Source: Bryoerythrophyllum caledonicum
Taxonomy: Eukaryota; Streptophyta; Bryopsida; Pottiales; Pottiaceae
Assembly: GCA_963971425.1 (NCBI GenBank)
Contig: OZ020517.1
Coordinates: 1,676,501-1,740,500, forward strand
Length of the DNA: 64,000 nucleotides
Direction: 5' to 3'
The notes beneath the pieces were generated by a model. It saw only the letters and a program-made list of their open reading frames with translations. It was not told where the DNA came from and did no database searches. Shown piece by piece: positions 6,060 through 60,340 of this stretch (its first letter is position 1; the number at the start of each line of letters is the position of its first letter). The translations under genes and the position numbers were made by a program.

Positions 6060-7133
6060 AGTTGTGTAGACCGTTGTGAAGGCCCAAGTTGTGTAGACCA
6101 TTGTGAAGCCGTATTTATTGTTTGTAGTGTAGTTGTTGGTAAATAACTACTATGCTCAGTTTTGCATATCTGTAAAGACCACAGAGTATTCGTTAATTAT
6201 TCAATCACAACGCTGATACTGTATTGATCTAATCTTGGTTTTTTCACTGATGTTCGTTTATAACTATGCTTCCTTATATTGGTCGCTGAGTTATGCATAC
6301 TTGCTAAAACTAGTGTGCTATCATCGTCTTAGTTTGACGACATCTTTCAGAAAATTGACTGTTATGCTTTACACTTGGATTGAAGGAAGCCTGCACAATA
6401 TCGATTTCCAGTACGCAATGTACAGTTTTTTGACGAAATTAGTCATTGAAAACAAATCTTGGACGTGCAGAGCCCTCTCAGGAAAAATTAGAGTTTCACC
6501 CACGCTTCACATTAGTGACGAAACTTGTCAGAATATAACTTCCAAAGGGTGAAATATTACAGTCTATTCAGTTAAAACTTAACACTGGACATGGAAAGGG
6601 AATGATACTCCAAGGCTGCAGAAGTAGTTGCACTGAAAGCGTGGCGTGAGCACTAGATCTGCACCCAGCAGACTCTTTATGGTATTAGCGTGAATCTCCT
6701 TGGGCATTAAAAGTTGTGCTCTGTGTATGTCTCTTCACCTCAAGTCACAGTTAATATCATTAGAGCATCCGCAAAAAGGACTTCGGCAACAAGCCTCAGA
6801 AAATTTGTCAAAACCTACGCCTACTATATGAATGTAACTGTACATACATGTATATATACGATCACGGGCTCCAACAATCAATTTGGTAGGAGGAACACAA
6901 GTTTGGATACCCCTATTCATGATGGAGTATCCATAAAGTGCTTGTCGATTTACCTGCATCACTTTTTATTGAATATACCTGCAGCACTTTTGATAGTAAA
7001 GCTTCTCATACATTGTATTGGTGCAGGGCTATCACTAGACCAAAAAAACAATTATGGTCAATTGTTGTTTCCTATGACTTTCTCCTCTAAAGGCCCAAGG
7101 CATTATACTTTCTAGAAACATTCCAAAACTGCC
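6060..7133. other. LEA 3' region and intergenic, no further gene supported
   Basis: The first 150 bases are probably the LEA 3' untranslated region, including a direct repeat of AAGTTGTGTAGACC. The remainder has short frames with no recognisable product. A short CTAAAGGCCCAAGGCATT near 7087 recurs at about 35596 and may be an end fragment of a family A repeat. Confidence 0.45.
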
Positions 7134-8642
7134 ACTACACTAAAGATGGCATTTGGTGTAGTGGACACTAAATACGAACCCATACACTACTACTCAACTT
7201 GACAATTAGTGTAGTGACAAAACTATACACTAAATGTCAACTACTACACTAAATGTCCATTCTAGTAAATAGTGGAACTTAGATTTTTTTACATGTGGAC
7301 ATTTAGTGTATGAAACATAGAAAATGATTACGTGCACATTTCAAGCATCAAAGTAAAGAAAGTTTCGAGTGCATTGAAAAAAAAAAAAAACAATTTGCAA
7401 AAGAAAGATTGGAAAAAATATAATGTGGATATGGAACCACAAAAAAATCCCGGAAGTAGAAAAAAATAGAATGTGATTATGGAAGGAAATGAATTTGCAA
7501 ATATAAGATTGGAAAAATAAGAAATTGGAATTCAAAGGAAAGTGAGAGAAGAAAGAAATATTGGAAAATTCAAAAAACATAGATATAAAATAAATAAATG
7601 ATAAATAAATATTAAATAAACAAACATACAATAAATGTTCATTAAGTATAATATTGGATACTAATATAATAAATATTAAATAATGCAATTGGTAAAAACC
7701 AAACATTAAATAATCATGGATCATGATAAATGAATATATATAAAGATTAAATATTCACAAAACTTACAAATATACAAAAGTATCATATTATATTTTTTAA
7801 ATATTTCAATACTCATAAAAATCATAATATACAATCTATATTCATTAAATATTCACAAATATTCATTAAATATCACTTAAGTATTAATTGAATATTAACT
7901 AAATATTAAATAATTATTTATCAAATATATATTATATACCAACATAATATAATTCAAATATCAATTAAATTCTTAGTGAATGTGAATCAAATATTAATTA
8001 AATATTCATCAAATATTCATCAAAATATTCAGTACATATTCATGAAATACTAATTAAATATCAATTACATATTTATTAAATATTCAAAAATATTCAGAAA
8101 TAGTCATAAAACATTCATTAAATAATTATTGTATACTCATTGAATATTCATAAACTATCATTTTCATATTTAAATATTATTTACATACTAATGAAGTATT
8201 AAATAAGCATACATTACATATCATTAATTAACAAATATTCATTAATTATATAATGAATATAAATTTAATATTAACTTAATATTAATTTAAATGTTTTAAT
8301 CTTAGTTTAACATTATTTTAATATTATTTTAATATTATTTTGATGTTATTTTGGAAATAGGATACTATTTTAATATTATTTTATTAGGGTACTATTTTAA
8401 TATTATTTTAGAAATAGGGTAGTATTTCCCATGTGGGTAAGTAGTACTATTTATACCTTTTAATATCATTTAAGTATTATTTTAATATTGTTTTAGAAAT
8501 AGGGTACTAAGGTAGGTGGATGATTGGGGGTTATTTTAAATGTCAATGGCCGCTAACACTAATTGCCAACTTGTTCACGAATAGTGTACTAGGGTAATTA
8601 CACTATTCGTACCATTACACTAAATGCCATCTTTAGTGTACC
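7134..8642. mobile_element. AT-rich non-autonomous element with palindromic inverted ends, family C (1.5 kb)
   Basis: The left end reads CACTACACTAAAGATGGCAT and the reverse complement of the right end reads TACACTAAAGATGGCATTTA. Each end is itself a near-palindrome, because TACACTAAA is followed by TTTRGTGTA. Between about 7330 and 8520 lies degenerate low-complexity DNA built from AAATATTCATTAAATATTAA-like words. No protein is credible. A 284-bp relative lies at 35846. The starting CACTA is suggestive of CACTA elements, but without a clear 3-bp duplication I leave the superfamily open. Confidence 0.6.
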
Positions 8643-9480
8643 AAAGCGTGGCAAGCAAATCTAAATTTGAAGTAACCCTTTGGAGTTTTACCCGTAAGAT
8701 TTTAAAATAAACTACTATATGAACTTACCATAATTTTTTTGGTGCAATCCACCACACTGGTATGAAGTTTATGGCGTTTGAAGTCAAGACCGGTTCATTT
8801 TGTTCCCCGCGCTAAGTGAATGAGGAGACTTTGACTTCACTTGGTGATAATTTTTTGCACTACACAAGGTCTAAATCCATTACCATTGTGTTAAGCATGA
8901 TGTTATGTCTTTAAGCCCCAATTTTTAGAGGTAGAGAAGGGGTGCAGCATATTCAAAACAAGTGTGCAAGGAGTGGAGGTTCTAATATTGCCAATTCACA
9001 TTTTATTTTTTGTGAACTGAATATGTTTAAAAATAATAATCCAAACAAGCAATAGGAAGGTTTCCATCACATATTGGCACCAAAAAATAAAAAGTGAAAA
9101 TATGAAGATCTCTAGGTTTTATGTAGGAAAGAAGAAGTTTTTTTGGTACCTTGCCTGACAATGTATGAGAATGTTTGACTTGGGTTATATATATTTTTTA
9201 CACAAAAGACAAGAATTATTTTTGACATCTTCAGAGAAGGTAATATTCTCTATATGTATGAAAAACCTCAATGTCAATAGAAACTTCTAGCAAAACTTTT
9301 GGAGCTGCCCGAAGTCTACAATTTGACTTTGAATGCTAATAACTTTCATATAATAAATCCCACCAATTTTATTTTATTTAAATATAAAAATTATCCACAA
9401 AGCTCTTATCACAGACAATCTAGTATAAAATTTTCAAAAAGAAAAGGTTTTTTTTTCAAAATTTAGGAACTTGCCTAAAA
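8643..9480 (+). mobile_element. Family A element, truncated forward copy
   Basis: The sequence from CAAATCTAAATTTGAAGTAA onward matches the second unit near 22195. It then follows the family A body, including GACTTTGACTTCACTTGGTG, CACTACACAAGGTCTAAATC, the GTGCAAGGAGTGGAGGTTC block and the TTTGACTTGGGTT block. Its left side is cut by the family C element. Noncoding. Confidence 0.6.
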
Positions 9481-9503: not shown

Positions 9504-10449
9504 CCCCTGAGGTACCGTGACAGTTTTACACCAAAAACACTTCAAAATTGTTAAATTCTAGAGCACTAAACAAAGAAAGAAACAAAAACTTTGAGTTCTA
9601 GTTTTGACCGTAGGATCTCAAAGACGACTTATTCAGTACTGTATCTGGAAAATCTTATAAACTTTGACCGCATGGATTGAAAAATTATAGAGTTTGAAGT
9701 CAAGAAAATGGTTCATTTTCTTCCCTGCATTCAGTGGGTCAGCAGACTTTGACTTCACTTGGTGTCAAATTTTTGCACTACACAAGGTCTAAATCCATTA
9801 CCATCTTGTTAAGTATGATGTTAGTTCCTTATTCACCAATTTTTAGATGTAGAGGAGAAGTGTAGCATATTCAAAACAACTGTGCAAGGAGTGGAGGTTT
9901 GAAATTTGCCAATTCACACTTTATTTTTTTGTGAACTTAGTATGTTTTAGTTTGATAATCCGAATGGTCAACAAGAAGGCTTACACTACATGTTGTCGTG
10001 GAAGAAATAAAAAGTGAAAAATAAAAAGATATCTAGGTTTTATGTGGAAAAGAATAAGTTTTTTTGATACCTTGTCCAACAATGAGTGACAATGTGTGAA
10101 AATGTTTGACTTGGGTTGGTATGCTATTTTTCACTAAAGACAAGAACTTTATTTTGACAGTATGAAGGGAAACAATAGTACTTGCGAGTATTGAAAATCT
10201 CACATTCAATAGAGTGTCCTAGCAAAAGGTTTTGGAGGTGCCCAAAGTGCCCGCTTTCCCCATTTGAAATTCAAAACCCTATAACCGTTTTCATCAAATG
10301 TCAAATTTAGGAAAATCTTATTTTCCCACTAAGGTCTTGGTAATCCGTTTCTATGGTAAAAAATTCAAAGAGGAATGTTGGAAATTGAAACCATAGGAAC
10401 CTGACCAAACTTTCAAAAAGCCCATTTTTGACACTTGGTCCTTTAGGGG
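9504..10449 (+). mobile_element. Complete family A element (946 bp) flanked by TTAA
   Basis: Left: TTAA (9500-9503) then CCCCTGAGGTACCGTGACAG. Right: CACTTGGTCCTTTAGGGG then TTAA (10450-10453). The ends are short inverted repeats (CCCCTRAGGTACC-like), and the TTAA duplication with C-rich termini is the signature of the piggyBac superfamily. No transposase is encoded, so any movement would need an enzyme supplied elsewhere. The copy at 56847-57789 is collinear and nearly the same length (943 bp). Confidence 0.75.
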
Positions 10450-11397: not shown

Positions 11398-12128
11398 TGG
11401 GGGCACCTCCAAAAATTTTGACAAAAGTTTCTATTGACATTGATATTTTTCACACATACAAAGAATATTTCTTTTTCTAGAAATTTTCAAAAAAATTCTT
11501 GTCTTTAGTGTAAAAAGGCATTTTATTCCAAGTCAAACATTTTCACACATTGTCGGGCAATGGGGGAAAAACAATTCATCTTTTCTACATAAAACGTAGA
11601 GATCTTTATATTTTTCACTTTTTATTTTTTCAACAACAATATGTGGTGAAAACCTTCTTATTGACCGTTTGGATGATCATTTGAATACATACGTAGTTCA
11701 CAAAAAAATAAAACGTGAAATGGCAATTTTTGAACCTCGACTCCTTGCACACTTGTTTTGAATATGCTACACCCCTTTTTTACCTCTAAAAATTAGTGAG
11801 TTGGGAAATAACATCATGCTTAAGACAGTGGTAAAAGATTTAGACCTTGTACAATACAAAAATTTGATACAAAGTGAAGTCAAAGTCTGCTCATCTACGC
11901 AATGCAAGGAAGAAAATGAACCATTGTTTTGACTTTAAACACTAAAATTTATCAATCCATGCAGTGGATTGCAACCAAAATTTCATGGCATGTTTATATT
12001 GAAGTTTATTTTAATATCTTACGGTTGAAAATCCGAAATTCACTTTAAAATGTGATTTTCATGTCTCTTTTTGGCAGTGGCAGTTTTGGACTGGTTTTAG
12101 AGCGAAAGTGGTCGTGGTCCTTTAGGGG
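11398..12128 (-). mobile_element. Family A element, reverse, truncated at its distal end
   Basis: It begins inside the family at GGGGCACCTCCAAAAATTTT and ends GGTCCTTTAGGGG directly followed by TTAA (12129-12132), which is also the left TTAA of the family B element. The interior has the usual landmarks in reverse, including the CTACACCCC block and AGTGAAGTCAAAGTCTGCT. The first about 200 bases expected from full copies are missing. Confidence 0.6.
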
Positions 12129-21566: not shown

Positions 21567-21778
21567 AAGTTGCGCTACTTCAGGCAGATTATTACCCCAG
21601 ACGGCGGTTGATTGTATATTTCGCAGATGCATTTCATTGACATTCATTCCTTGAATTCATTTCATTTCAATTGTTTTGTCTTTCTCGTAAGGAGTCAACA
21701 TTCTGGCACTTCCTGATTTCATCGTGTCTGAAGGCACCTTTGAGCAAGTATGTTGCAACCTCTTCTAAGTGAACCTGC

Positions 21779-22170
21779 GTTGAGTGGATCAGCAGACTTT
21801 GACTTCACTTGTATCAAATTTTTGCACTGCACAAGGTCTAAATCTTTTACCATTGTGTTGAGCTTGATGTTAGTTCCATATACAACAATTTTTAGAGGTA
21901 GAGAAGGGGTGTAGCATATTCAAAACAAGTGTGCAAGAAGTGGAGGTTCAAAAACTGTCAATTCATGGTTTATTTTTTTGAGAATTTAATATGTTTTAGA
22001 ATGATAAACTAATATGTCAATAAGAAGGTTTACACCACATATTGTTGTAGAAGAAATAAAAAGTGAAAACTTTAAAGATCTCTAGGTTATATGTAGAGAA
22101 GATGAAGTTTTTTTCCCCGCTTGCCCAAAATGTGTAAAGATGTTTGACTTGAGTTAAAATGTTTTTCTTC
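21779..22170 (+). mobile_element. Family A element fragment (forward) just after the CCDC90-like gene
   Basis: It starts inside the family at GCGTTGAGTGGATCAGCAGA, about 210 bases past the stop codon. It contains the CTACACAAGG-like, CATATTCAAAACAAGTGTGC and TTTGACTTGAGTT blocks. Both ends are truncated, the right end by the next copy. Confidence 0.6.
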
Positions 22171-22841
22171 ACTCCAAATTTGCCACTATCAAGAAGTGGC
22201 AAGAAAATCTAAGTTTGAAGTATAATTTTGGACTTTAGGTCGTAAGATCTTAAAATAGACTTCAAAATAAACTCACCATATTTTTTTGGTTGCAATCTAC
22301 CGCACAGATGAAGATTATAGTGTTTGAAGTCAAGAAAATGGTGCATTTTCTTCCCTACTTTGAGTATATCACCAGAGTTTAACTTCACTTGGTGTCAAAC
22401 TTTTGCGCTACACAAGGTCTTAATCCATTGCCATTTTGTTAAGCATGATGTTAGTTCCTTATACACCAATTTTTAGAGGTAGAGGAAGAGTAGCATATTC
22501 AAAACAAGTGTGCTAGGAGTGGAGGTTCAAAAATGGCCAATTCACATTATATTTTTTTGTGAACTAAATATGTTTTAGAATGCAAATCCAAACAGTTAAT
22601 AAGAAGGTTGATAGCACACCTTGTAGTAGAAGTAAAAAATATGAAGATCTCTAAGTTTTATGTGGAAAAAGAAGAAGTTTTTCTGGTACCTTACCCGATA
22701 ATGTGTGACAATGTGTTGACTTAGATTAATTTGCAATATTCCTTTAAAAATAAAATTCTTTCTTTGACATTTTTTGCTATTATTGAAAATCTCACACTAA
22801 AGAGAGTGTTTTAGCAAAAGCTTTTGGAGTTGCCCGACTTG
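22171..22841 (+). mobile_element. Family A element copy, interrupted by the LINE
   Basis: The copy begins near AAGAAGTGGCAAGAAAATCT, carries the family A body and runs to TTTTGGAGTTGCCCGACTTG, where the LINE begins. The family sequence resumes after the LINE at 34957 with CTACTCTCCCCATTTGAAAT, which corresponds to CTTTCCCCATTTGAAATTC in the uninterrupted copy near 10252. The host element was therefore older than the LINE insertion. Confidence 0.65.
22831..22841 (+). repeat. Left target-site duplication of the LINE (TGCCCGACTTG)
   Basis: The 11 bases TGCCCGACTTG occur here and again at 34946-34956. Joining the flanks there gives the family A sequence expected without an insertion. Confidence 0.75.
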
Positions 22842-25096
22842 TCAGCTTTCCAATACCAAGAGGATGGAGAACTAAAGGAGCTCCGTGATTTCTGGTGAGG
22901 GGTGCTCTTGGAAGTTAGTCGCAGATTGAGAGTAGAGGGCAACAAGAGGTGTTGGGCTTGTTGACGTTCCACCTTTACTCCAGATCTAGAAGTGTATGAG
23001 CTTGGGGAGAGACGTGAATTGTTGGATTGGGGCTGGATTAGTCAGATCTACTTGTGCAAAACTTTTTGGAAGTGAGTGTGTGCCTAGAGGCAAGACCGTG
23101 TCGTAAGTCATCTGTGAGAGCTGGAACTTTGAGTGTTGGGCGATTAGGTTAGAACCTCACTCCAGATCGTATGAGCAAGTTGCAGATCTGCTAGTTCATG
23201 CGAGTACACGTACAGAGCTCATACATTAACTTCCAAGACTACCCGAATCCAGAAAATCAACATCACAACGCTGGAGAAAGGAGATCAACACACGCTGCCA
23301 CCAACGCTCAAGACGCCCACCGTTGAGCTACGCACTTCCCTCAACCTTCTCTATCTTTTTTGCATAGTCTTGCTTTCTCTTCTTATTATTTTTATTAACT
23401 TTCCCACTAGACATCCCACGATATACACACAGCCCCACTTGGGAGTCACAACTAGCTTAGTACCACACAACACTCACAAATCTCTTAGATCTAATAGCAC
23501 ACAAACTAATCAACATCACCAAAAAATTAGATCCAAAATCACATTAGAGAGACAACACCAGCACTATCACATTCTTAGACACCATATTAGTAAAGTCAGA
23601 TCCACAAATACCACGTGGAAGCGCTGCCAAAAATTACACAAACATCACCAAGATGCACATCACGATAACTCTCACCACACTTTTGCTCTCACCATCATAT
23701 GCAACAGTTATGTGCTAGAAACAGTTAGTAAACATCCAAACAAGGAACTACAACGACCATACAGGAGGAGACCGAGACCAGAAGACAAACACTTCAACAA
23801 CCGAAAGCCTGCACACAGCCGAGAGCATGCAAGAAAAAAAGATCGACACGACGACCTAACAAGCAGAGGAGTAGCGTTAGAAACGAGGAACAACATCAAC
23901 AAAACTTCCACGACCAGCAGCAGAGACGAAAACAAGTACGGCTTCAACTCGCCCAAGCTCGGCACACAAGCCAGAGGATCACATGCGAAAGCATACAGGT
24001 TCTTTCTCCCCAATTTCGATTCAGAGCCTCCTAGGTACTCTCATTGCTTCCTTCTATGGTATACGCAGTACTCATGCAAACTAAACCGAAAATATAACTG
24101 CGAACTAGAACAAAGAGATCTTCAACAACATAAGAAAAGTAGATACACACAAACTAACGACACTAATAGACAACGCTGCACCAGAACTAGAGTTGCATGT
24201 GCCCTGCAGAAGTACTATCCACCTCTCCACAGATCCGAAGAAACCACTTTGAGGTCTACACCTAGCCTACCTCTTGCAGACCAACACAACCGCATCATCA
24301 ACATGCAACGTCCACATTAATTGAAGAATACTGGACTAAAGCAACTTATCCACCTGCGACCATCATCAGGTACGGCACTATAACTAATATTCATGCAGAT
24401 CAGGTAGAAGAAGATCAGCACTTGCGCACAGGTCCGCTCAACACCACAACACCAGCGAAACGAACTTCATCAACAGCAGAAGCCCTGCCATATAACATAT
24501 CACAAGTCAGGTACAAAAGGAGAAGACCTGGCGCTACAACAAATCGGGAGGTCCAAAGCCCGAAATCAAGCACCCGGAGAGACATAGAAGATCTGGCCAC
24601 AACAAAACACACCGCAAGAACAAGATGGAAACCCCCGAGCCCAGGTACCTTGACACTGCAGCAACTGGAGAGAGTACACAAGTTATCAAAAGACGGAGAG
24701 TCCACAACACCAAGAGCTCAAGAGCCCGCAGCACAGGCTAGCCATACGCACGAAGACTCAAGATCAGAGGCACAGAGAAGACTGGAGTCGAAGAACCAAA
24801 CGACCTTCCTGAACAGACACTCCCCCTACCCCCAGCGACCTACCACTTTACATCCACGACCTGCCTTGCATCGCCAACGACCTACTACTCCCTGCCAGCG
24901 ACCTACTACTCCTTTCCAACAACCTCTAGAACCTCCCCAGCGACCTTCCACCTTCCCCACACTACCAACTTGTCTCAGCCATCGACCCTGCAAGTTCCAA
25001 CAAGCCTCCAGCGACATACTCAAGGTAAGTGACTACACCTCTCCTCTGCCTAACCCTTGCACATTAGTAGTGGTATTACAGTGGGGAGGGACAGGT
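22842..25096 (+). other. Long leader (5' untranslated region) of the LINE
   Basis: About 2.25 kb precede the likely ORF1 start. It holds a 316-codon open frame (23370-24320) and the 5' continuation of the ORF1 frame (from 24422), both rich in His, Thr, Arg, Gln and Pro as expected from A/C-rich noncoding sequence. Near 24830-25010 a degenerate CAGCGACCTACTAC-type repeat encodes a Pro/Arg/Thr-rich stretch. I see no domain. It may contain the internal promoter, which LINEs need, but no motif is evident. Confidence 0.45.
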
Positions 25097-26767
25097 ATGG
25101 ACACACGAAGTGCGAAGAAAGCCCTCAACTATGTAGACCACATGGAGATCGAGCCCCCAAGTGAAAGTCTCAAGCGGCTCCAAGGGAAACAAGTGGAGAA
25201 GCAACGGCATGAAGAGGCATATGCCAACAAGAAACAAAAGCCCATCCATGAAGAAAACAAAGGACAAGAAGGTATGACTCTAATCTCCATCCCCGATATT
25301 AGTTGCTTCAAGTTTTGGCTAGGTTTTCAAGTAATGGAGGACCTAGCGGTGGAGGAGGGATTGGACGAACTCTTCAACAAGGAAACTATTGAGGATATGG
25401 TGACAAGAGGACTCAAAGAAAGTGAAGCCCGTGAAGTCAAACAAGCAAGGATAGCCTTCCCACGCATCCCTCAAATCCATTATCCACAATCACGAGGGGC
25501 TAGAGGACTAGGAGGACAACACTACAACCTTACGCAAGTATCCACCAACATCCCCGTTGACGAAGGTACGGGTTTGGCTCTAGATTTTCAAGTGGCTATC
25601 CATTTTGAACCACCCACTAACCCTATTTTTCATGATGAAGTCATGAAGATGGTTACTAATCGCCTCAAAGACATGGATATCCTCCTCGGTAAGAAACTCA
25701 TCGAACCAATCTCCATTCATTGTTTGAGTGTCAAAAATGGAGGGGGAAAAAAGGGTGTATGGGCCGGACTCATTAAATTGCATCTTGCTAACCCAACAAT
25801 TGATGGCCTACTCCTCCTCAAGGAGATTAGACCCTTCATTCTCAAAATCGATGAGATAGACGTGGTGGGAAAGGTATGTAAAACCTATCATAGCATTTCA
25901 CACCACTCTAGTCTTTCAATTAAGATACAAAGCCCATCTTTGCAAAACATGGATGCTAACCACCTCTTTAATGAGGTCCTTGAAACTAGCTTTAAACGTG
26001 GGCATGACTTTGAAGTAACTAACGTGCAGAAGGCTAAAGGTGATGGATTTGCCTTCATCATGACCACCACCCCGCAACAAGCCAAGAAAATTCAAGAGTT
26101 ACAAGTAACCGCAAGACAAGAAGTCTTTCAAACAAAGAAGCCCCTTGGAAGAAGTCGCATCACCAAGGAAATGAAGGCCAAGAAAGACGCCCTCACTCTA
26201 ACACTCTCCCACCTTCCTATACTAATGAGTGTTATTGAGACCACTAGGGCTATCTACATGATCATAGGAGATACTAACATTGGCTCTATTTGGTTTCACA
26301 AGGATAATGGAGTTTGCCACAACGGTAGTGCAAATGTGGTATGCTCTAACCCAATTGTGTATAGGGCATTTGTGGGGAAAACCATTCCCATAGGAGGCCA
26401 CTTCGTGGAGTTCGCCCCTCATAGAAGAAGCATTGACGGAATTGAGGCCCCCACCCAAGCTCAACTCATAGAGTTTGGATTTGGAGACATCAACAAAGCC
26501 ATCATCAACACGGTGGAGACCTTCAAACTCAACACCCCGTCACAAGCTATCACCAAGAAGGACCTAGTGGAAGCATTTGAAGCAAACAACAAAATCTTGC
26601 GACAAGAAGTCAAAGAACAAGCGGATACAAAAGCCAAGGAACTCCAAGAAATCAAAGACCAAATGTTGAAGATCCAAGAATGCGTTGGTACCACCTTTGC
26701 AATGTTGCAAAATATCACGGGGTCCAAACCACATACCTCGATTGAAGGGGACTCGTCAAAAATGTGA
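25097..26767 (+). CDS. LINE ORF1 protein (likely nucleic-acid-binding), about 556 aa
   Basis: The first plausible start is MDTRSAKKALNYVDHMEIE at 25097; the frame is also open upstream to 24422, so a longer start is possible. The frame ends TGA after EGDSSKM. There is no CCHC knuckle. The middle (about residues 170-260) shows alternating strand and helix patterns that could be an RRM-like fold (SIHCLSVKNGGGKKGVWAGL). A later block reads YRAFVGKTIPIGGHFVEF. The last about 100 residues, with EAFEANNKILRQEVKEQADT and KELQEIKDQMLKIQE, form a clear coiled coil. LINE ORF1 proteins coat the element RNA and often trimerise by coiled coils; this role is inferred by position. Base composition is ordinary, unlike the very G-poor sequence that follows. 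Confidence 0.65.
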   Translation: MDTRSAKKALNYVDHMEIEPPSESLKRLQGKQVEKQRHEEAYANKKQKPIHEENKGQEGMTLISIPDISCFKFWLGFQVMEDLAVEEGLDELFNKETIEDMVTRGLKESEAREVKQARIAFPRIPQIHYPQSRGARGLGGQHYNLTQVSTNIPVDEGTGLALDFQVAIHFEPPTNPIFHDEVMKMVTNRLKDMDILLGKKLIEPISIHCLSVKNGGGKKGVWAGLIKLHLANPTIDGLLLLKEIRPFILKIDEIDVVGKVCKTYHSISHHSSLSIKIQSPSLQNMDANHLFNEVLETSFKRGHDFEVTNVQKAKGDGFAFIMTTTPQQAKKIQELQVTARQEVFQTKKPLGRSRITKEMKAKKDALTLTLSHLPILMSVIETTRAIYMIIGDTNIGSIWFHKDNGVCHNGSANVVCSNPIVYRAFVGKTIPIGGHFVEFAPHRRSIDGIEAPTQAQLIEFGFGDINKAIINTVETFKLNTPSQAITKKDLVEAFEANNKILRQEVKEQADTKAKELQEIKDQMLKIQECVGTTFAMLQNITGSKPHTSIEGDSSKM

Positions 26768-27151
26768 AGAACAACAACCTCAAGGCCATTAATTCTACAC
26801 CCCACCCGTATTGTTTAAAATACGACCATAGTAAAATACACCTAGTCAAAACCATAGCAATACTAACTAACAAATACTTATACTATACAATACTATTAAT
26901 CTTACGCAAAATACTACTAGTATTTTGTAGTATTTACATAGTATTATCCACCATACATATAGATATGCACAAAATAGAATACATGGTAGAATACATGTTA
27001 GTATACATAGACATGTATTTCACAGTGTATAAAAAATATAGACTACATACGCTATACCCATATTGTACTAGAACAAAAAAAAATACAAATACTATACCAA
27101 AAATATGTATACAACACAAATACAAATACATATATATATACACATACTATA

Positions 27152-27661
27152 TTGGACAAAAATACTGACCTTTATACAAATACGAACACAAATACAAACA
27201 CTAGTATAAATACTGAAATACATACTAATAAAAACACCAAAACATACAATAGTATAAATCCCAAAACATATAATAAAGCCACATATAAAAAGGACATAAA
27301 CACCACCTTAAAAACCAACACAAACCATCATACACATATTCTTAATAAAAACCACATATACACATGGGCAAAAACAACCAAGATAAAATACAACAAAACA
27401 TACATACATCTACACAACACAATAACAAAAACAACCACGAAGAAAAACACAAGGACACAAAATAAGAAAAAAAGTAAAACAACCATAGCTACCAGAAAAA
27501 TAAATAAACCCACAACTCACACACAAAATACAAACATCCACCTACCCCCAAACCAACAAGACACTAAGAACACAACAAAACCTTTAAAAAACGACACTAA
27601 ACATAAATACCACAAACTCCTAATACTTCTAGGATGAGACATAGAAACAAACCCCGGACCC
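27152..27661 (+). CDS. Asn/Thr/Lys-rich leader of ORF2 ending in a 2A-like peptide
   Basis: A frame of 161 codons, very rich in Asn, Thr, Lys and His, ends ...HKLLILLG, then one TGA (27635-27637), then DIETNPGP (27638-27661) and Met. The Leu-rich lead followed by D-I-E-x-N-P-G-P matches the 2A consensus, in which ribosomes skip the Gly-Pro bond and release two proteins from one frame. The residue before D is normally Gly, and GGA to TGA is one change, so this copy is probably broken there. The rest of the peptide is a low-complexity product of A/C-rich DNA. 2A-like sequences are documented in several LINE groups such as L1Tc/ingi and CR1. Confidence 0.6.
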
Positions 27662-28298
27662 ATGCCAAATATACTAAAAAGACACCCTACATCACATAAA
27701 AAAAATGCCAAAATATACTTCATACGTAATACCATAAAACTCCAACCAGAATATGAACACATTGCAAAATCCTTCGCACCTTTTCTAAAAAACACACATA
27801 CACTACACCACATACACTACACCACATACACAACACTTCCCACCCAAACATTGCTCACTACATACAACAAAAAAATACGCAGCCACCACTCCACATCCTA
27901 TATGCACTAATAATCACTACTCATCCAAACATAGATGAATGTAACCATCTTCTAAATCCACAAAATCTGAACACTATTACATGGACCAATACACTTCTAC
28001 AAACTTTACTAAACTTACAAAACCCACCAGAACGACATATTTCCATTCCACACCCTTATACTAATTTCCTGGCAGATAACCAAAATATTATAAACCATGA
28101 GAACTCAATACATAAAAGACTATACGACTTCATACATAGTCAAGACATACCACCCTCAAATGAAACAATAAAACTAAAATTCCCTTACCTTCCTAACAAC
28201 CTCATAAATGAATCACTAAAAAGTCTAGACCCTATACCAGAATACACACATCCACCCCCACCTCTTCCTTACATCCCTCCTCAAAATCAAAATAGTAG
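27662..28298 (+). pseudogene. N-terminal region of ORF2 between the 2A-like site and the endonuclease
   Basis: The frame after the 2A motif runs MPNILKRHPTSHKKNAKIYF to 27910. A second frame is open from about 27870 to 28322 (including PHPYTNFLADNQNIINHEN and PPPPLPYIPPQNQNSRSNQ), so one shift in a run of A near 27870 and another near 28310 separate it from its neighbours. The roughly 210 residues show no domain I recognise. Algal Dualen elements carry a cysteine protease in addition to the endonucleases, but I do not see its motifs here. Confidence 0.5.
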
Positions 28299-29666
28299 AT
28301 CAAACCAAGAAAAACATACATAATCACATGGAATGCCTCCTCACTAAATACCACCATTTCTAGCTTACAAACTCTAGTCACAAACACAGACACACCACCG
28401 GCCCTCATAGTTATACAAGAAACTAAACTAACCGCCACAAAATCTACAAAATACATACAAAATATATTTCAAAACTATAAACTCATCTTTAACAATACAC
28501 ATACACTTACAAGATGCATGCAACAATGGAGACCATACACTCCGGGCCGAGGTGGCCTCCTTACATTAATACACAAAAAATATACATTCCCAGGCAACAT
28601 CAACAAAATCCCTACCCCAAAGCACATATCACCATACATCCAAATAATTCAAATCACTAACCACCGACTACAACCGTGGTTAATCTTTCATATGTATATG
28701 CCATCCCATCCCGAAGATACTAGATTTCTCTTAGATATACAGAACACTATTACATCCCAAATTAATAATAATCCCAACCATACATACCTATTATGCGGAG
28801 ACTTCAACAGAGACATAGCGTTAATTGGCCGACAAAATGGAAATCACCACACCCCCCCTCAAAACATTGATTATCAATGGCGTCGCTTCACAGAAAACTT
28901 AAACCTCACTTATATCAATACCGATACACAATTCTCTAGACAAGGTGGCTATAATTATAGTGATTGGAGTCTAATAGATGGATTCTATATAAATACAAAC
29001 AACAATACACAATACACCTCCACAACAAACAAAGATATTATTCTCAACTCGGACCACTCATCCGTACAATTACACATCCCAAATAACACACTAATTAGTA
29101 GAACTCCTACAATCCTAAACAAAGATACTATACGCATACTCAACCCCATCCCAAAAACCAACATAGAAAAATTCAACACAAAATTCTTTGAAGAAAACTC
29201 CATACAAATAGACTCCCTCATAGACACTCTTGAAAATAATAGTCAATTAACACAAGTTCAATGGCAAGAAGCATGCCACACCCTAGACAAACTCATCAAT
29301 AAAATCTCTGAAACACTAGAACAAACTTGTAGAGCACACCCAATACCCCAAATGACAAATGGAACTTCTCAACAAGGCGGATACCTACCCCGCAAACTTT
29401 CTAAAACTTGGAAACAACACTTAACCACATACCATACCATACGTAAAACCATTAGAATTGTAAAAAACAACCCTCAATGGCGTAACCACCCCATATACAA
29501 TGAACTACTAATTCTACAACACATCCAAATCCCTACCCCGCCACCTCCGGACCTTCCCCACGATACATGGATAAAAGATATCGCGATAATTGCTAAAAAT
29601 GCCAACATACAAGCCCGGAAAATAATCACAAAATACACCAAAGAAAACGTTAAAAAAGCCATCTGA
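28299..29666 (+). CDS. LINE ORF2, APE-type endonuclease domain
   Basis: The open frame includes the endonuclease from ITWNASSLNTTISSL (the N/W motif), through VIQETKLT (metal-binding Glu), LLCGDFNRDIAL (catalytic D and N), WSLIDGFYI, to LNSDHSSVQLHI (the S/D-H motif). These are the ordered motifs of apurinic/apyrimidinic-type endonucleases that nick target DNA to start target-primed reverse transcription. The rest is a helical spacer leading to the polymerase. The frame is stopped by TGA at 29664-29666 in the sequence KAI-stop-KYRQLYE; the second copy has Ser (TCA) there, so this is a recent loss. G is very scarce on this strand: 3 of 60 bases at 29101-29160 are G, against 21 C. Confidence 0.8.
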   Translation: MKPRKTYIITWNASSLNTTISSLQTLVTNTDTPPALIVIQETKLTATKSTKYIQNIFQNYKLIFNNTHTLTRCMQQWRPYTPGRGGLLTLIHKKYTFPGNINKIPTPKHISPYIQIIQITNHRLQPWLIFHMYMPSHPEDTRFLLDIQNTITSQINNNPNHTYLLCGDFNRDIALIGRQNGNHHTPPQNIDYQWRRFTENLNLTYINTDTQFSRQGGYNYSDWSLIDGFYINTNNNTQYTSTTNKDIILNSDHSSVQLHIPNNTLISRTPTILNKDTIRILNPIPKTNIEKFNTKFFEENSIQIDSLIDTLENNSQLTQVQWQEACHTLDKLINKISETLEQTCRAHPIPQMTNGTSQQGGYLPRKLSKTWKQHLTTYHTIRKTIRIVKNNPQWRNHPIYNELLILQHIQIPTPPPPDLPHDTWIKDIAIIAKNANIQARKIITKYTKENVKKAI

Positions 29667-31490
29667 AAATACAGACAACTATACGAAATCAGCCCAAAAA
29701 AAATTAACAAAAAAGTCTTTAAAAACCTTGAATCCCCGCCAATGGACTGTATCATAGATCAATATACTAATATTCTAACTAGCCCCGAAGACATTGCAAA
29801 TGAAATATTTAACCAACAAACAAAAACTAATAGACCAACAGTACCAATATGTAATTATCAGCTACAACATACAATAGAATGTACATGCGCAGTACGCCAA
29901 TACCCATGGCATGACCTCGACGGATATACCCTTAACAAACGGGGCGAACTAGAAATCCCAGTACACAAATACCTCAACAGAGCCATATACGACACATGCC
30001 TCCAAAATCTTGGAAATAATAAAGCCCTAGGCCCAGACCGCATACCAAACTCAATACTCAAAAACATGCCTCCAAGATTTCATAAACTACTATTCCTATT
30101 CTTTTCTCACTCCTATAAACAAAGACAAATACCAAATTCATGGAAAACAAGTATAACAATTCTACTATACAAAAAATGCGATCCGTCCATGCTACCCAAT
30201 CATAGACCAATTGCACTAGCTAACACAATATATAAACTTTTTACCAGTACACTCACCCACATACTATCCTCATACGGAGAAAAATTCAAAATCCTACATG
30301 ATAGTCAAGAAGGATTTAGAGCGGAGAGAAGAACCGCACGACAAATACAAACCATAATAGCCGCACTAGAAGACGCAAAATTTACTAACCAAGATATATA
30401 CATACTATACGTGGACTTCAAAAATGCCTTTGGCTCAATTGACCATGCCAGACTCCTAGCAATAATGTCAGACCTTGGCTACCCAAAAGAGGCAACTACA
30501 CTTGTTGGAAACATCTATTCCCAATCATCTACTTGCTATATCGGTGAACACTTTGGGAAAACAAAACCTATATCCATCCAAAGAGGAACTATACAAGGGG
30601 ACACCCTCAGCCCATACCTATTTATTATATTTTTAGAACCACTACTTAGATGGCTAGAAAGAGGCAATAACCGATATACTTTCGGCACATCACAAGTCAC
30701 AATGAACTCCGCCACATACGCGGATGACCTAGCCACCATAACTAACAAAATCAAATCAATCCAAATACAACTCAATAAAATTGATAGATACTGTAAATGG
30801 GCTGGCATGGATGTGGGAGTCCCAAAATGTGCCGCTACCGGATGCCCAAACAAATCTAAATTGAACCCTACCACTTTCAAAGCCCTAATGCAAACCTCTA
30901 ACATCAACTACCGCAACCAACCAATCCCTATACCACACCAAAACAAACCATTCATATACCTAGGTACAAATCTTGTTCCTTCACTAAAATGAAAAATCCA
31001 AATCCACACTACAACCACAAAGCTCATCAAACAATGCAAAGAACTAACAACATGTCCGGCCACCATGAAACAAAAAATAAAAATGGTTGATACCGTACTA
31101 CGCCCAGGTGTGGCATACAGTTTTTATGGGGTACCATACTCTATGCCAGCCATCAAAAAACTTGATCAAAAAATAATCGCCATACAAAAAACCATATGTG
31201 GATTACCAAAATGTATGTCAAACGCAATAACACAACTACCACATAACCTATTCGGACTTGAAGCTTTCTCCCTAAAAAACGCATATCTTCGATGTATAGG
31301 CAAACAACTACAAAATGCCTTAAACGATAAAGGTAGACTTGGAAAAATTTATAATGTATTAACTCATTACATCCTCGCCCAATACGGGGGCGCCGAAAAC
31401 ATACCCAAAATTAAAAAAAAAAGATTGTATAAGATCACCAATAACATGGACATTCTTCTTATTAAAACATATAGCCAAAGTCCACCTTAA
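29667..31490 (+). CDS. LINE ORF2, reverse transcriptase domain
   Basis: It continues in the frame of the endonuclease. Polymerase landmarks are present in order: LGPDRIPNSILKNMPP, NHRPIALANTIYKLF, SQEGFRAERRTARQI, LYVDFKNAFGSIDH (the first catalytic Asp), IQRGTIQGDTLSPYLF (fingers/palm), TYADDLATI (the catalytic DD) and the thumb-proximal YLGTNLVPSLK. The enzyme copies the element RNA at the nicked target. The GTIQGDTLSPYLF..FLEPLLRWL signature resembles the RandI/Dualen group as I know it. An in-frame TGA at 30990-30992 lies where LINEs usually have Trp, and the frame is lost by a shift in a run of A near 31415. Confidence 0.85.
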
Positions 31491-33147
31491 AAGCACACTC
31501 CCAAACTTCCTCATTAATCCTACAACACTTGAAACACTATGGCGGCAAGAAACACTAAACCACAACACACTCAATGCCCAACTCTTTCAAAAGCTTCTAC
31601 AAAAACTCCTCTCAAAAAATATTTTTGAATTAGCACAAATTACGTTACCCAACGGCACACATATCATGAACAACGAGGACTTCAAAACCTACCATTTCAC
31701 CCCATCCAAACTATTAAAAAGTGCCCTAAATATTGCTAAACAATTATTTTGCCACCAAACATGCCCCAACATATGTCTTTTTCCTTGTAACATACATTTA
31801 TACTCTCATATACTTAAAGACTCATTCATCACCCTCAACAATAACATCAACCCAAGAAATATCCCCACACCAATCAATCCCGCTAACCCTCCACATACAT
31901 ATCACCCCCGCCCCCCAACATACATCCCCAAAAACCCTACCACGTATCCCATTAATGACATCACACACCATAAACATATCCAATACACAGACTCAAACAA
32001 CATACAAAATACCTACACAAAATATCTATGCCAATGGCAACACAATGATAACACATATAATAAATGGCTCCCCCAAAGAGACCTTTTTCCACGACACGAC
32101 ACCAATACCTCCACACATAACACCAAAAAATTAAAACAATACTACCAAAGAATTCAAAACAAAACATACTCGGATATCATCCTAGCCCACCACCCCCAAG
32201 AACAATTCCCAGACTTAAGAGCCGTAACACCACCCATAATTATCCCACTCTTAAACATCTACACAACAGAATGCAACCCTGAAAACGATATTCTTACATC
32301 CTCAAACACAATTCAAATAGATAACAATCAAGTACATCTATACGAAGAAAACGGCCGACATTTACACACCATATCCACTACCCGGCTCCAATGGTTATGG
32401 AAACAATATCATACAAAATTCCAAACCCCTACAAACATTGAACCAACAACCCAACCCTTTGAAACCGAACTAATATGGCTTAACCAAAGGTATAAATATC
32501 GAATACCAAAAACTGACCCCCTCAAAAATGCACAATACACAATACCCACCCCCATTTTAGACTCACTAATCTCATCCTTTAACATCGAACACTCATACTT
32601 TTCCTCCCCGATCACATGTCCTACCAAACTAAATAAATTCTACTCACCGTGCAAAAGAGACAAAATATTTGGATCCCTAGGCAAGGCCTTTGACCACAAA
32701 TGGATCGGAAATGGCATAGCTCACCCCCACAACAAGAAAGACATGGAACAAGCCATACATTGGGCTAGACTTGCCGCCAAACACGATCCAAATAACACAA
32801 AAACAATCATCGTCACATCAAACAACAATTGGTACCAAAACAATAACCAACATTCAAACCCATTCCCAGATTCCCACATCATTGCAGTATTTGAAGCAGA
32901 CACGATACCATACGTAGAACCTAATATTCCACCCGAGCTAAAAAAACCCCGAACCGAGCCATCTACATTACAAATACTATGCGTCCATCATCAAAATCAA
33001 ACCCTTGGCTCCCTAGAACAACTTGCGGAACTTACCTCCATAACAAACAATCTAGACATACAACGACCATACACAAAACTGGCCCAACCAACACCCATAC
33101 AAACCCCCGTAAACAAAAGTAAAAACTCGTCAAAATTAAATACATAA
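31491..33147 (+). CDS. LINE ORF2, connector between polymerase and RNase H
   Basis: From about 31470 the homologous frame shifts by one and stays open to TAA at 33145-33147 (Met codon at 31666, MNNEDFKTYHFTPSKLLKSA). It encodes about 550 residues of very Asn/Thr/Pro/His-rich sequence with interspersed conserved blocks such as IFGSLGKAFDHKWIGNGI. The second LINE copy preserves the same blocks at 61612-60341 on the minus strand, so this is real coding sequence. I recognise no catalytic motif. Its N/T/P richness follows from extreme scarcity of G. Confidence 0.65.
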
Positions 33148-33198
33148 ACAACACATTAAAATACCCCGTCACACCTCCCCTTCTCCAAGACTACCCAA

Positions 33199-34450
33199 TT
33201 CATACCACACAAAAATTTAACCCTGCACACAGTTATTACACCGACGGCTCCTTTAAACCACCGGAACAAATTAGCCCGGGCTCTTGGCGCAGAGAAAAAG
33301 CTGGATATGGCATATATAATTCTACCAAAGAAATTAAACTAGCCAAAAGACTCCATGGACTACAAAATATCCTCAGAGCAGAACTTATGGCCATTCACAA
33401 AACACTACAAATCATCACAACAAAATACAAAAATGAACCCGCACGTATATTCACTGATTGTATAAATGCACTTTACCTACTAAACACTCAAATAACACAC
33501 CCTACCCTTCACAATAGTCACCCCGACCAAACCATATTAACATCAATGGTCCAAATGTTACAAAACCGTACACAAATCACAACCCTCCACAAAGTGAGAG
33601 TCCATGCCAACATTGATGGCAACGAACAAGCAGACAAACTTGCAAAAGAAGGCCGAGAAAAAACACACAAAAATGCCAAAGACCCACACGAACATGCCCA
33701 TGCCACCCCATACTACTTTCAAAAAGAAGATTGGCCTTCCAAAGAGGATATCCCCGACAAAGGCCCAATTAGATTCTTGGGTAAATATCTCAAAAAACAA
33801 GACCTCTACAACAACCTTGACACAATCTCAGAAAATATTCCTAACATAGAAAAATGGACGAACAATAGCGACATAGACAATGAACTCTCTACAAACTTTT
33901 GGAAAAACCCCATCATCTCAGACTCACAAATAACATGCCTCATCAAATTCCGTACTGGTCAGTATATGGGAAACGCTCGCAAACAACTATTCTTTGGAAT
34001 AGAAAGATTCCCATCCATAACATGCCCCATATGCCCCTCAACGGACCCCGACACATGGCTTCATGTTCTACTCAAATGCCAAAACCACCACATATACTCT
34101 CTAATTGTTAAAAGGCATAATAAAGCGGTGTGGGAAGTCCGAAAACTAATCACCTCCTACAATAAATCGAGATGTTTTATACTAATGAACGCCGGCACTT
34201 TTAATAACAACCCACAAGAAAATACGGTCCCCTCTTGGCTACTCCCATGCTCATGTGTGATCCAAAGATGTCATTGCAATGCTAGGCTCAAACCGGACAT
34301 CCTTTGTGTTAAAGGTTTACCATACAATGACCCGCCACCCGACCACATTAACCTAAATTACACCATTCAATTCATTGAATTCACATGTTGCAACGATAGA
34401 TTTTCCCCGGAAACAATCCAAACAAAATTGACAAATACCAACCCCTCATT
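33199..34450 (+). CDS. LINE ORF2, RNase H domain followed by CCHC knuckle and restriction-like endonuclease
   Basis: RNase H: SYYTDGSF (D, near 33231), RAELMAIHK (E), RIFTDCINALYLL (D) and VRVHANIDGNEQADKLAKEG (H..D) give the D-E-D-D set that degrades RNA in RNA/DNA hybrids. After a spacer comes CPICPSTDPDTWLHVLLKC (a C-x2-C..H-x4-C knuckle, near 34022-34083), then KRHNKAV, then LKPDILCV (PD, near 34287-34305) and IQFIEFTCC (E, near 34364-34390). This knuckle-KRHN-PD-E order is that of the restriction-like endonuclease of R2- and Dualen-type LINEs. A one-base shift near 34430 breaks the frame before the last about 85 residues. Confidence 0.75.
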
Positions 34451-34696
34451 GACGACATCATTGCCATTGGATGGAAGGTGGACCCCCTTATTGTTATCAC
34501 ATCCGGCGCTCGTGCCACCACCTTTATCCCATCTATGAAAACTCTTGAAGATACCTTCAAAATACCCATTGAAACAACCAAAACCACCTTTAAAAACATT
34601 AAGACCATCGCTATTCAATATGCCATGTCCATTTTGCTACATAAACGTAAAATTGAAAACAATCAAGCCCTCCCCGATATACAAGACCCCCCTTAA
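34430..34696 (+). CDS. LINE ORF2, C-terminal end of the restriction-like endonuclease
   Basis: In a shifted frame the sequence continues KIDKYQPLIDDI, GWKVDPLIVITSGARATTF and ALPDIQDPP before TAA. The block KYxxLIxxLxxxGWxVxPxxVxxGxR is typical of the last part of PD-(D/E)xK nuclease domains at LINE C-termini. The second copy has the same segment joined to its nuclease core without a shift, ending LPGPHDTP. Confidence 0.7.
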   Translation, partial: DKYQPLIDDIIAIGWKVDPLIVITSGARATTFIPSMKTLEDTFKIPIETTKTTFKNIKTIAIQYAMSILLHKRKIENNQALPDIQDPP

Positions 34697-34945
34697 ATGC
34701 TTCTTCGCCCAGACTTATCCTGACTTGTTGGTTTTGTGTTTTTGGCGACTTGCTTAGTTAGTTGTTACGTTGATTGTCTGTGTGCTTGGTTGGTATTCGG
34801 TCACTTGTTACAGAGTGTCTACGCTCGAGAGGGGGAAGTAGTTCCAGTTTACTAATTCCTTGTCCGGTGGGCATGGTCTTAGTAGTGGAACGAACAGACA
34901 CTTTATTCACGCCGGGTCCTTCGGAGACCGGCATTCTTCTTCTTC
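34697..34945 (+). promoter_or_regulatory. LINE 3' untranslated region with terminal hairpin and (TTC)n tail
   Basis: After the stop, about 215 bases shared with the second copy (AGAGGGGGAAGTAG, TAATTCCTTG, CAGACACTTTATTCACGCC) lead to a GC-rich hairpin at 34911-34932 (GCCGGGTCC-TTCG-GAGACCGGC) and then ATTCTTCTTCTTC. In the second copy the hairpin is GCCGGTCC-loop-GGACCGGC; the stem is kept although the bases differ. In CR1, L2 and RTE LINEs such 3' structures and microsatellite tails are recognised by the reverse transcriptase, so the same role is inferred here. Confidence 0.7.
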
Positions 34946-34956
34946 TGCCCGACTTG
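34946..34956 (+). repeat. Right target-site duplication of the LINE (TGCCCGACTTG)
   Basis: Identical to 22831-22841. The following CTACTCTCCCCATTTGAAAT resumes the family A repeat that received the insertion. Confidence 0.75.
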
Positions 34957-44869: not shown

Positions 44870-45645
44870 TAGTATGGAATAAGAATTTTTGAACCTCCAC
44901 TCATTGCACAATTTTTGAAAATATGCTACACCCCTTGTCCACCTCTAAAAACTTTTGCACTACACAAGATCTAAATCCAATACCATCGTATTAAGCATGT
45001 TGTTAGTTCTTAGGTGAAATAGCATATTAATCCAAATAAATTATTTTCACACATTGTTACACATTTTCGGCCACGGTACCAAAAAATCTTCTACCTTTCC
45101 ACATAAAACTTTGAGATCTTTGTATGATTCACTTTTGGTTTTTCCTACGGCATTATGTGATGTAAACCTTCTTATTGACCATTTGGATTCTCATTTAATA
45201 CAATATAAAGGTCACAAAAAAATATAACGTGAATTGTGAATTATTGAACCTCCACTCATTGCACAATTTTTTTGAACATGCTACACTCCACCGCTACGTC
45301 TAAAAATTGGCGTACAAGGAATTAACATCATGCTTAACATTATAGTAATTAATTGAAACCTTATAAAGCGCAAAAATTGAACACCAAGTGATGTAAAAGT
45401 CTACTGATCCAGTAAACGCAGTGAAGAAAATGAGCCCTTTTCTCTACTTCAAACACTATAATCTTTCAATCCATGCGGTCAATTTTTTTGAAATTTTGTG
45501 ATTATCTTACTTAATAAGTCATAATTGAGATCCTACGGTTTAAACTACAAATTTTCTTTAAAAAAATTCTTCCTTACTCATTGCATTAAAACAAGCAATT
45601 TTAACGACTTTGTCTTGAGAAATTGTAACATGATTTTTGGGCTAA
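44870..45645 (-). mobile_element. Family A element fragments, reverse
   Basis: Two overlapping reverse pieces of family A, each with the GAACCTCCACTCATTGCACA and ATGCTACAC blocks (at 44893 and 45246), sit side by side. The segment ends near TTTTTGGGCTAAGTTACTTA without a clean TTAA end. It lies directly upstream of the decayed DGQH gene. Confidence 0.55.
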
Positions 45646-48894: not shown

Positions 48895-49815
48895 CCCCTA
48901 AGAGCCCAAATGTACGTGGGGGGTACAATTTAGATTTTGTGCAGGTTACTAAAATTCGAAATTAAATCTTTAAGACAAAAAATTCTTATACTATATTGTC
49001 CCTGATAAGAGCTCCATGGAGATATTTTTAATTTCATTTTTGGATTCATGGTGTGAAAGTTAGTACCACTCAAAGTTAGAAATGGGGACTCCGGGGAGCT
49101 TCCAAATTTTGCTACGAGTCTCTATTGACATTGAGATTTTCCATACAAGTAGATAATATTACCTTCTTAGAAGATGGAAAGAAATTTTTTTGTCTGTAGT
49201 GTAAAAAAATAAATTAATTGAAGTCAAACATTTTTACACATTTCGGGCAAGCGAGGAAAAAAACTTATTCTTTTCTACATAAAACCTAGAGATCTTCTTA
49301 TTTTCCACTATATATTTTTTCAGCAAGAATATGTGGCGTAAACCTTCTTTTGACTATTTGGATTATCATTCTAAAACATATCAAATTCTCAGAAGAATAA
49401 ATTGTGAATTGACAATTTTTGAACATCCACACCTTGCACACTTGTTTTGAATATGCTACACCCCTTTTCTACCTCTGGAAATTGGTGTTATGGGAACTAA
49501 CACCATGCTTAACACAATGGTAAAATATTTAGAGCTTTTGTAGTGCAAAAACTTAATACCAGGTGAAATCAAAGTCTGCTGATCCACTGAACGCAGGGAA
49601 CAAAATCAACCATTTTCTTGACTTCAAACAATAAAATCTTTCAATCCGTGTAATCAAATTGTATGAATTTTTTTAGTATGTTACATAGTAAGTCTTGATG
49701 GAGATCCTACGGTCGAAAGGATAAATATAAGGTTTTATTTCCTTCCTTATCCATTGCACTAGAATCAACAATTTTGAAGTGTTTTTGGTGTGAAATTGTC
49801 ACGGGCTTTTAGGGG
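48895..49815 (-). mobile_element. Complete family A element (921 bp), reverse
   Basis: Left: TTAA then CCCCTAAGAGCCC. Right: GGGCTTTTAGGGG then TTAA (49816-49819). The terminal inverted repeats match except for one base (CCCCTAAGAGCCC versus CCCCTAAAAGCCC). The interior is the reverse of the complete forward copies at 9504 and 56847. It abuts the previous copy with only a TTAA between them. Confidence 0.75.
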
Positions 49816-56842: not shown

Positions 56843-56846
56843 TTAA

Positions 56847-57789: not shown

Positions 57790-57793
57790 TTAA

Positions 57794-60335: not shown

Positions 60336-60340
60336 TCTCT

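Follow-up and report, generated by a model that had tools for sequence, protein, structure and literature searches.

The element and its copies

The window analysed here, the whole 64,000-nucleotide stretch of contig OZ020517.1 from the moss Bryoerythrophyllum caledonicum, contains on its forward strand a full-length non-long-terminal-repeat retrotransposon of 12,104 bp, referred to here as element A. The 11-bp sequence TGCCCGACTTG is present on both flanks as a target-site duplication (22831-22841 on the left and 34946-34956 on the right, forward strand), and therefore the insert corresponds to 22842-34945, exactly the limits and the full length of 12.1 kb that an initial annotation, made from the letters of the window, had proposed. 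Although complete in length, element A is a dead member of a large family of long interspersed nuclear elements (LINEs); its second open reading frame (ORF2) is interrupted by stops and frameshifts, one of them within the restriction-like endonuclease (RLE). A second broken copy, element B, lies on the reverse strand at 57990-64000, where it is cut by the window edge, with its 3′ end at the low coordinate (about 57990, the exact end not being fixed). Element B is 72-80% identical to element A, in pieces, retains the 3′ hairpin and TTC repeats described below, and is also dead through stops and frameshifts. Judged from the sequences of these copies and of their open relatives in the same genome, the family is very probably a Dualen/RandI-type dual-endonuclease LINE that has been amplifying recently in a moss.

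All features of element A lie on the forward strand. ORF1 is an open frame of 833 amino acids (aa) at 24266-26767, with a conserved part at about 25100-26764. It is followed by a 2A (StopGo) peptide, DIETNPGP (27638-27661), directly 5′ of MPNILKRHP and, in copy A, immediately downstream of a stop. Next come an apurinic/apyrimidinic-type endonuclease (APE; 28314-29081; Pfam Exo_endo_phos, E 2.8e-6), identified also by its motifs and substitution ratios, and a reverse transcriptase (RT; 30195-30971; Pfam RVT_1, E 3e-26) with YVDFKNAF and YADDLA, placed by a tree. The region between the RT and the RNase H (33231-33656; Pfam RNase_H, E 3.9e-12) contains a weak chromodomain-like stretch (KYLCQWQHNDNTYNKWLPQRDLF; 31999-32088; Pfam Chromo, E 0.084, under the curated cut-off) and a PCIF1-like domain (32422-32820; Pfam PCIF1_WW, E 2.8e-9), which resembles the cap N6,2′-O-dimethyladenosine (m6Am) methyltransferase but has its NPPF motif replaced. 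The C-terminus consists of a CCHC knuckle, C-x2-C-x9-H-x4-C (34023-34079), and the RLE (34113-34693), with RHN and KPD-x26-E followed, past a frameshift near 34421, by Kx2KY and GW. The domain content listed by the initial annotation (CGDFNRD, LNSDHSS, RT, RNase H, CCHC, KRHN, KPD and IEF) was recovered in full in copy A by motifs and Pfam; the PCIF1-like domain, the 2A peptide and the recent activity of the family had been overlooked. The coding strand at 26768-34693 is extremely biased towards A and C, unlike most of the window, with 40% A, 28% C and 11% G in the ORF2 region and only 6.5% G in the spacer.

Element A ends in an imperfect hairpin (34910-34933) and a (TTC)n tail without poly(A) (34934-34945). 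The conserved 3′ motif was found at 33 places in the DNA examined, representing 23 distinct sequences, and TTCTTC was located just downstream in all 33. Over the 23 distinct 3′ ends, hairpin pairing was kept in 88.5% of the alignment cells, and 16 cells were altered on both sides compared to 6.4 in shuffles (none of 500 as high). Other counts weigh against covariation. Pairs changed on both sides numbered 4 compared with 2.5 in shuffles, 69 of the 500 reaching this level. Further pair types came to 8, below the shuffle mean of 10.2, a count equalled or exceeded in 500 of 500 shuffles. In addition, 10 of the 23 ends leave one inner pair unpaired. Copy A and a 9.9-kb subfamily have a weak fold (z -0.64 and -0.65), whereas it is strong in copy B and the genomic copies c7a and c8b (z -4.1 to -4.8). 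The (TTC)n tails are short non-A repeats, as in RandI, for which Table 3 of PMC3747384 gives such 3′ repeats in eight of eight families, (ATT)n or (CTATTT)n being listed.

The initial annotation counted two copies of the element, a number that turned out to be far too low. In the genome searched (437 Mb in 894 contigs, some of them chromosome-sized), exact 29-nt patterns from the 3′ end and from the RT occurred 953 and 494 times, respectively. A pattern taken at the 5′ end of the 9.9-kb subfamily was found 23 times, and the reversed-pattern controls did not occur at all. Additionally, the RNase H-RLE region gave 10,765 candidates, of which 90 were scored; 19 of these 90 matches were located in open frames of at least 3000 aa, as counted by eye. 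Four open genomic copies match element A at about 92% identity over 27222-34945, and divergence between subfamilies is about 10%. Within the 9.9-kb subfamily, copies c1b, c2a, c2b and c3a are 99.97-100% identical to c1a (G000:C1:3619468-3629375) over 9.89-9.91 kb and lie at different locations. Duplications of 11-12 bp were found at the ends of four of these five copies (c1a, c1b, c2a and c2b) and none at the ends of c3a; an identical 3087-aa frame is present in four of the five, the c3a frame being 3135 aa long. Because these near-identical insertions lie at different places, some copies of the family have transposed very recently. No fixed target sequence was visible by eye at the 3′ junctions.

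The 5′ part of the element is more variable. Compared with its counterparts in two further genomic copies, ORF1 of copy A shows 53% and 33% identity, and no significant match to it was found in Pfam or the PDB. Using tblastn (E 1e-5), an ORF1 homologue was detected upstream of ORF2 in c6a, c7a, c7b and c8b, and none in the stretch available for c8a. The most recently amplified, 9.9-kb subfamily has low-complexity repeats where ORF1 would be. The 2A peptide, in the form GDIETNPGP 5′ of MPNILK, is present in all six open ORF2s examined for motifs (c1a, c7a, c8a, c6a, c7b and c8b), and decayed 2A-like repeats, GDMETNPRP or GDMVTNPRP, occur upstream of it in five of the six, two of which also carry GELEINPGP. 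The 2A consensus is given as (D/N)(V/I)ExNPGP in PMC12846837.

Two endonucleases, a PCIF1-like domain and their relatives

The six open ORF2s carry the complete set of motifs of both nucleases. TWNAS, IQETK, CGDFN, LIDGF and NSDHS of the APE, YVDFKNAF and YADDLA of the RT, the RNase H motifs (Pfam RNase_H, E 1.6e-12 in an open copy), and KRHN, KPD-x26-E, Kx2KY and GW of the RLE were found in every one of them. The CCHC knuckle with the same spacing was present in six of six open ORF2s and in all 12 distinct RLE sequences, as was Kx2KY in the latter; KPD was found in 11 of these 12, the exception being window copy B, which has KPN instead. The hallmarks that PMC5678591 lists for the RLE of LINEs, namely the CCHC knuckle, RH, Kx2KY with its catalytic K, and GxW, fit the motifs found here. 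The ordered pattern CCHC, RH, K/R-PD-x-E/D, Kx2KY and GxW was complete in open copies and in neither window copy, A being frameshifted and B having KPN. This pattern appeared in 0 of 200,000 composition-preserving shuffles of the open-copy domain and, without CCHC, in 1 of 200,000; among 1,670 translated frames the version without CCHC gave 18 matches, all from this element.

Furthermore, the ratio of non-synonymous to synonymous substitution rates (Ka/Ks; Ks is approximate owing to the strand bias) was low for both nucleases between open copies of two subfamilies. For c1a versus c7a it was 0.085 in the APE (bootstrap 0.05-0.13) and 0.072 in the CCHC-RLE (0.04-0.13), compared to 0.073 in the RT, 0.120 in the RNase H, 0.128 in the PCIF1-like domain and 0.069 in the chromodomain-like stretch. 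The comparison of c1a with c8b gave 0.082 for the APE, 0.064 for the RT and 0.23 for the RLE, the last value because the C-terminus of c8b is altered. These low ratios indicate that APE and RLE are both under purifying selection, with values as low as those of the RT in a family whose recent insertions are nearly identical.

The PCIF1-like domain was confirmed in two open copies, with PCIF1_WW scores of 46.1 bits (E 5.2e-12; cut-off 31.1) and 40.7 bits (E 2.4e-10), and its best PDB matches are two PCIF1 sequences (6irx and 6irv) with weak E-values of 0.012 and 0.034. The NPPF catalytic motif is absent from all six open ORF2s, which have AHPHN at that position. In the genome as a whole, all 150 scored PCIF1_WW matches listed from 2,614 candidates exceed the family cut-off, and a host PCIF1 gene could be among them. 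We conclude that the LINE captured a PCIF1 fold whose original catalysis has probably been lost, and the Ka/Ks of this domain between c1a and c7a indicates that it is kept by selection. No report of PCIF1 in a LINE was found in the open-licence literature searched; as far as this search goes, the domain would be new among the accessory domains of retrotransposons. In two open copies the chromodomain-like stretch had E-values of 0.043 and 0.25, which again lie under the curated cut-off of Pfam Chromo.

Relatives of the element were found outside the moss. A degenerate GTIQGDTLSP pattern gave two hits in a prokaryote genome collection, L050 and L051 (PUMO01000020.1 and PUOC01000032.1), on contigs of 54-56% GC belonging to sediment metagenome-assembled genomes (MAGs) named B1Sed10; from their LINE content, we infer that these contigs are eukaryotic DNA binned in bacterial MAGs. 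The genome to which L050 belongs has, on contig C3, one uninterrupted frame of 3038 aa that includes the starts of all four matches, covering an APE (213-845; 44% identical to the L050 APE), an RT (1770-3233; 39% identical to the RT of this family) and a PCIF1-like to RLE region (6669-9008; 27% identical to this family, with E 2.1e-10 and 29% identity for the RLE alone). These matches indicate that the same order, APE-RT-PCIF1-like-RNase H-RLE, exists in an element of another eukaryote. L050 also gave a weak hit to Josephin, a cysteine protease, upstream of the APE (E 0.023, below the cut-off). In the genome of L051 no match to the RLE was found, the L051 contig ending shortly past its PCIF1-like domain; this domain scored 25.8 bits, below the Pfam cut-off, and its core aligns, with HP again at the NPPF position. 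A similar chromodomain-like stretch was seen by eye in L051, and a PHD finger suspected there by eye found no support in Pfam or the PDB. Scans of viral contigs with the RT, the RLE, the RT motif and the L051 RT detected no relative.

These relatives also bear on whether the RLE and PCIF1-like matches could be chance similarity in an A+C-rich frame, a reading that the skewed base composition of ORF2 in copy A, the missing PDB match for the RLE and the weak PDB E-values for PCIF1 would favour. We rejected it as extremely improbable, since it is contradicted by the absence of the RLE pattern from the shuffles and by the environmental relatives, the source genome of L050 encoding a related RLE and L051 carrying a related PCIF1-like domain, on contigs of 54-56% GC; the Pfam PCIF1_WW match over the cut-off also speaks against it.

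An RT profile compared with the PDB scored 100 bits for one R2, 90 for R2Tg, 65 for human L1 and 49 for R2Bm. Comparison of the trimmed RTs gave identities of 23-27% with three R2 RTs, 25-27% with human L1 and 42-45% with L050 and L051. In a tree of these sequences the element together with L050 and L051 split from R2 plus L1 with an ultrafast bootstrap of 100; with three R2 RTs and human L1 as references, this tree separates groups and cannot name a clade. The initial annotation had held that an RT grouping inside a single-endonuclease clade would speak against a dual-endonuclease LINE, and no such grouping was seen with these few references. Membership in the L1 clade is contradicted by the position of the RT outside L1, the lack of poly(A) and the presence of more than a single APE. 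RTs of L1 type are present elsewhere in this genome, a human L1 query having yielded 3,336 candidates, of which 125 were scored.

Other features of the window and the assembly

In the window, a repeat family of 250-540 nt that resembles short non-autonomous transposons is present in many copies and in both orientations (8731-9143, 9649-10061, 11533-11965, 21698-22716, 45017-45552, 49222-49675 and 56992-57472). By eye, 5376-6059 encodes a protein similar to late embryogenesis abundant (LEA) proteins, containing repeats of 40 residues in tandem, for example AANTAGAAKDKAFGAKDAAGSKADETGSFVGDKANQAKG, and a 577-aa open frame at 51207-52940 looks transposase-like. Elsewhere in the assembly (G000), a plastid-like contig of 115 kb carries psaB, of which a 317-residue piece differs at two positions, as counted by eye, from PDB chains 7ksq_B, 6l35_B and 8htu_B of the moss Physcomitrium patens; this points to a moss as host and not to a lycophyte. 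Contig C821 carries at 55046-59411 a second intact psaA/psaB pair besides that of C894, possibly foreign (algal or cyanobacterial) DNA.

Proposed mechanism and comparison with known systems

A likely mechanism of movement is as follows. The ORF1 product would be an RNA-binding or assembly protein, and ORF2 would be translated as a long polyprotein from which the 2A peptide, whose motif is perfect, would split off an N-terminal leader. The main ORF2 product, predicted to comprise APE, RT, the chromodomain-like stretch, the PCIF1-like fold without catalytic motif, RNase H and CCHC-RLE, would bind the RNA that encodes it at the 3′ hairpin and (TTC)n tail. The first target strand would then be nicked by one of the nucleases, priming reverse transcription, and the other would cut the second strand 11-12 bp away, yielding the observed duplications, with the RNase H removing the template. 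The PCIF1-like domain has probably ceased to methylate and is likely to act as an RNA-binding, perhaps cap-binding, module. A bolder picture, improbable when taken as a whole, would be that of a moving land-plant LINE that employs two unrelated nucleases for two strands and reads its own capped RNA through a PCIF1 fold, this module being old because it is common to an element of a distant eukaryote. If the domain did act as such a cap reader, only full-length capped transcripts would integrate.

As for the division of labour, we favour the APE acting on the first strand and the RLE on the second. The reverse order, or a redundant action of both, seems somewhat unlikely to us. It is in line with R2, in which the RLE makes the first nick, and with an RT that scores some R2s above L1 (R2Bm scoring lowest). 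Against it, no specific target was seen by eye at the 3′ junctions, whereas most RLE elements are target-specific (PMC4640811).

Several results weigh against the reading as a Dualen/RandI-type dual-endonuclease LINE. The PD-to-E spacing of 26 residues is wider than in the RLE of R2, where it is 12-14. Two open copies, c8b and c3a, have altered C-termini. The comparison of c7a with c8b gave higher Ka/Ks values for the APE (0.198; 0.04-0.52), the PCIF1-like domain (0.203) and the RLE (0.159), with 0.074 for the RT, and in the close pair c7a/c8a, where counts are too small, the PCIF1-like domain gave 0.43 (0.15-1.28) and none of the 13 RLE changes was non-synonymous. AlphaFold, run on three-sequence alignments from the window only, yielded no model usable for judging a PD-(D/E)xK fold of the RLE (mean predicted local distance difference test scores, pLDDT, of 34.1 and 31.5), and searches of the RLE region against the PDB with phmmer and a profile matched no R2 chain. 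ORF1 homologues were detected by tblastn (E 1e-5) in none of the five copies of the 9.9-kb subfamily, with matches only in the flanks, so that this subfamily may either do without ORF1 or obtain it in trans. Pfam detected no cysteine protease or peptidase in the ORF1 and ORF2 pieces scanned (the c7a-type leader excluded), a search that a divergent one could escape. Lastly, no named Dualen/RandI sequence turned up in the collections searched.

Part of these data would agree with an APE LINE whose C-terminal RLE no longer cuts and merely binds DNA or RNA: the unusual PD-x26-E spacing, the altered C-termini of two open copies, and duplications of 11-12 bp without a fixed target visible by eye, which resemble APE-type integration. 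We consider this unlikely, given that CCHC and Kx2KY are retained in all 12 and KPD in 11 of the 12 distinct RLE sequences, and that between c1a and c7a the Ka/Ks of the RLE is no higher than the RT value. A LINE with two nucleases remains the preferred reading. The claim of the initial annotation that an APE and a restriction-like endonuclease coexist in one plant LINE is borne out by the motifs of the six open ORF2s, the signature of purifying selection and the same layout elsewhere.

Dualen/RandI elements were reportedly described by Kojima and Fujiwara in 2005. Dualen of Chlamydomonas includes a cysteine protease, which is probably not defining, and to our knowledge it has not been shown so far whether both nucleases of dual-endonuclease LINEs work. 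These elements are described as carrying both nucleases (PMC3636483, PMC4640811), are listed for green algae only in one source (PMC4438587), and are reported from all green-algal species compared in another (PMC8226300) and from cryptophytes except Guillardia theta in a third (PMC12747079). An origin of APE elements through replacement of the RLE has also been argued from them (PMC4640811). No report of Dualen in land plants was found in the open-licence literature searched.

Membership of the moss family in the Dualen/RandI clade is likely on sequence grounds. It could instead represent a separate, unnamed dual-endonuclease clade, Dualen-like in its working but not its sister, in which APE and RLE were combined independently. 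The lack of a Dualen reference in the comparison, the undetected cysteine protease and an RT only 42-45% identical even to L050 and L051 leave room for this alternative, which we nevertheless regard as distinctly unlikely: the APE-RT-PCIF1-like-RNase H-RLE order is common to the element of another eukaryote, the sub-cut-off Josephin hit in L050 hints at the protease content of Dualen, and the non-A 3′ repeats are as in the eight RandI families of PMC3747384 (Table 3). If the finding is confirmed in a moss, the dual-endonuclease type would extend from green algae (PMC4438587) and cryptophytes (PMC12747079) to land plants. The family would then offer a living system for dissecting the role of each nuclease and testing why two cutters are kept.

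Compared with known systems, the family shares with Dualen/RandI the presence by sequence of APE and RLE in one element, an RNase H domain (by Pfam), non-A 3′ repeats and an RT outside the RLE-only and APE-only references tested, which were three R2 RTs and human L1 only. It differs in its plant host, in the undetected cysteine protease and in a (TTC)n tail instead of the (ATT)n or (CTATTT)n of RandI. Among dual-endonuclease LINEs it would stand apart through its host and, putatively, through its 2A peptide and PCIF1-like domain. The R2 group has in common with it CCHC, RH, K/R-PD, the acidic residue, Kx2KY and GxW, most of them as given in PMC5678591, and provides the best PDB match of the RT, but the moss element also carries an APE and an RNase H, has two ORFs and an RT of only 23-27% identity, and showed no fixed target. 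Plant L1 LINEs show the same APE-RT order and target-site duplications, whereas the element described here lacks poly(A), carries an RLE and has an RT 25-27% identical to that of human L1. PCIF1/CAPAM shares a homologous core (Pfam PF12237; PDB 6irx and 6irv at weak E-values) and differs in that NPPF is replaced by AHPHN and the domain sits within a LINE polyprotein. Finally, 2A-bearing APE LINEs, reportedly described by Odon et al. in 2013, resemble this family in the canonical (D/N)(V/I)ExNPGP that opens the endonuclease protein; here, it is found in a dual-endonuclease plant element with decayed upstream 2A-like repeats in five of six open ORF2s.

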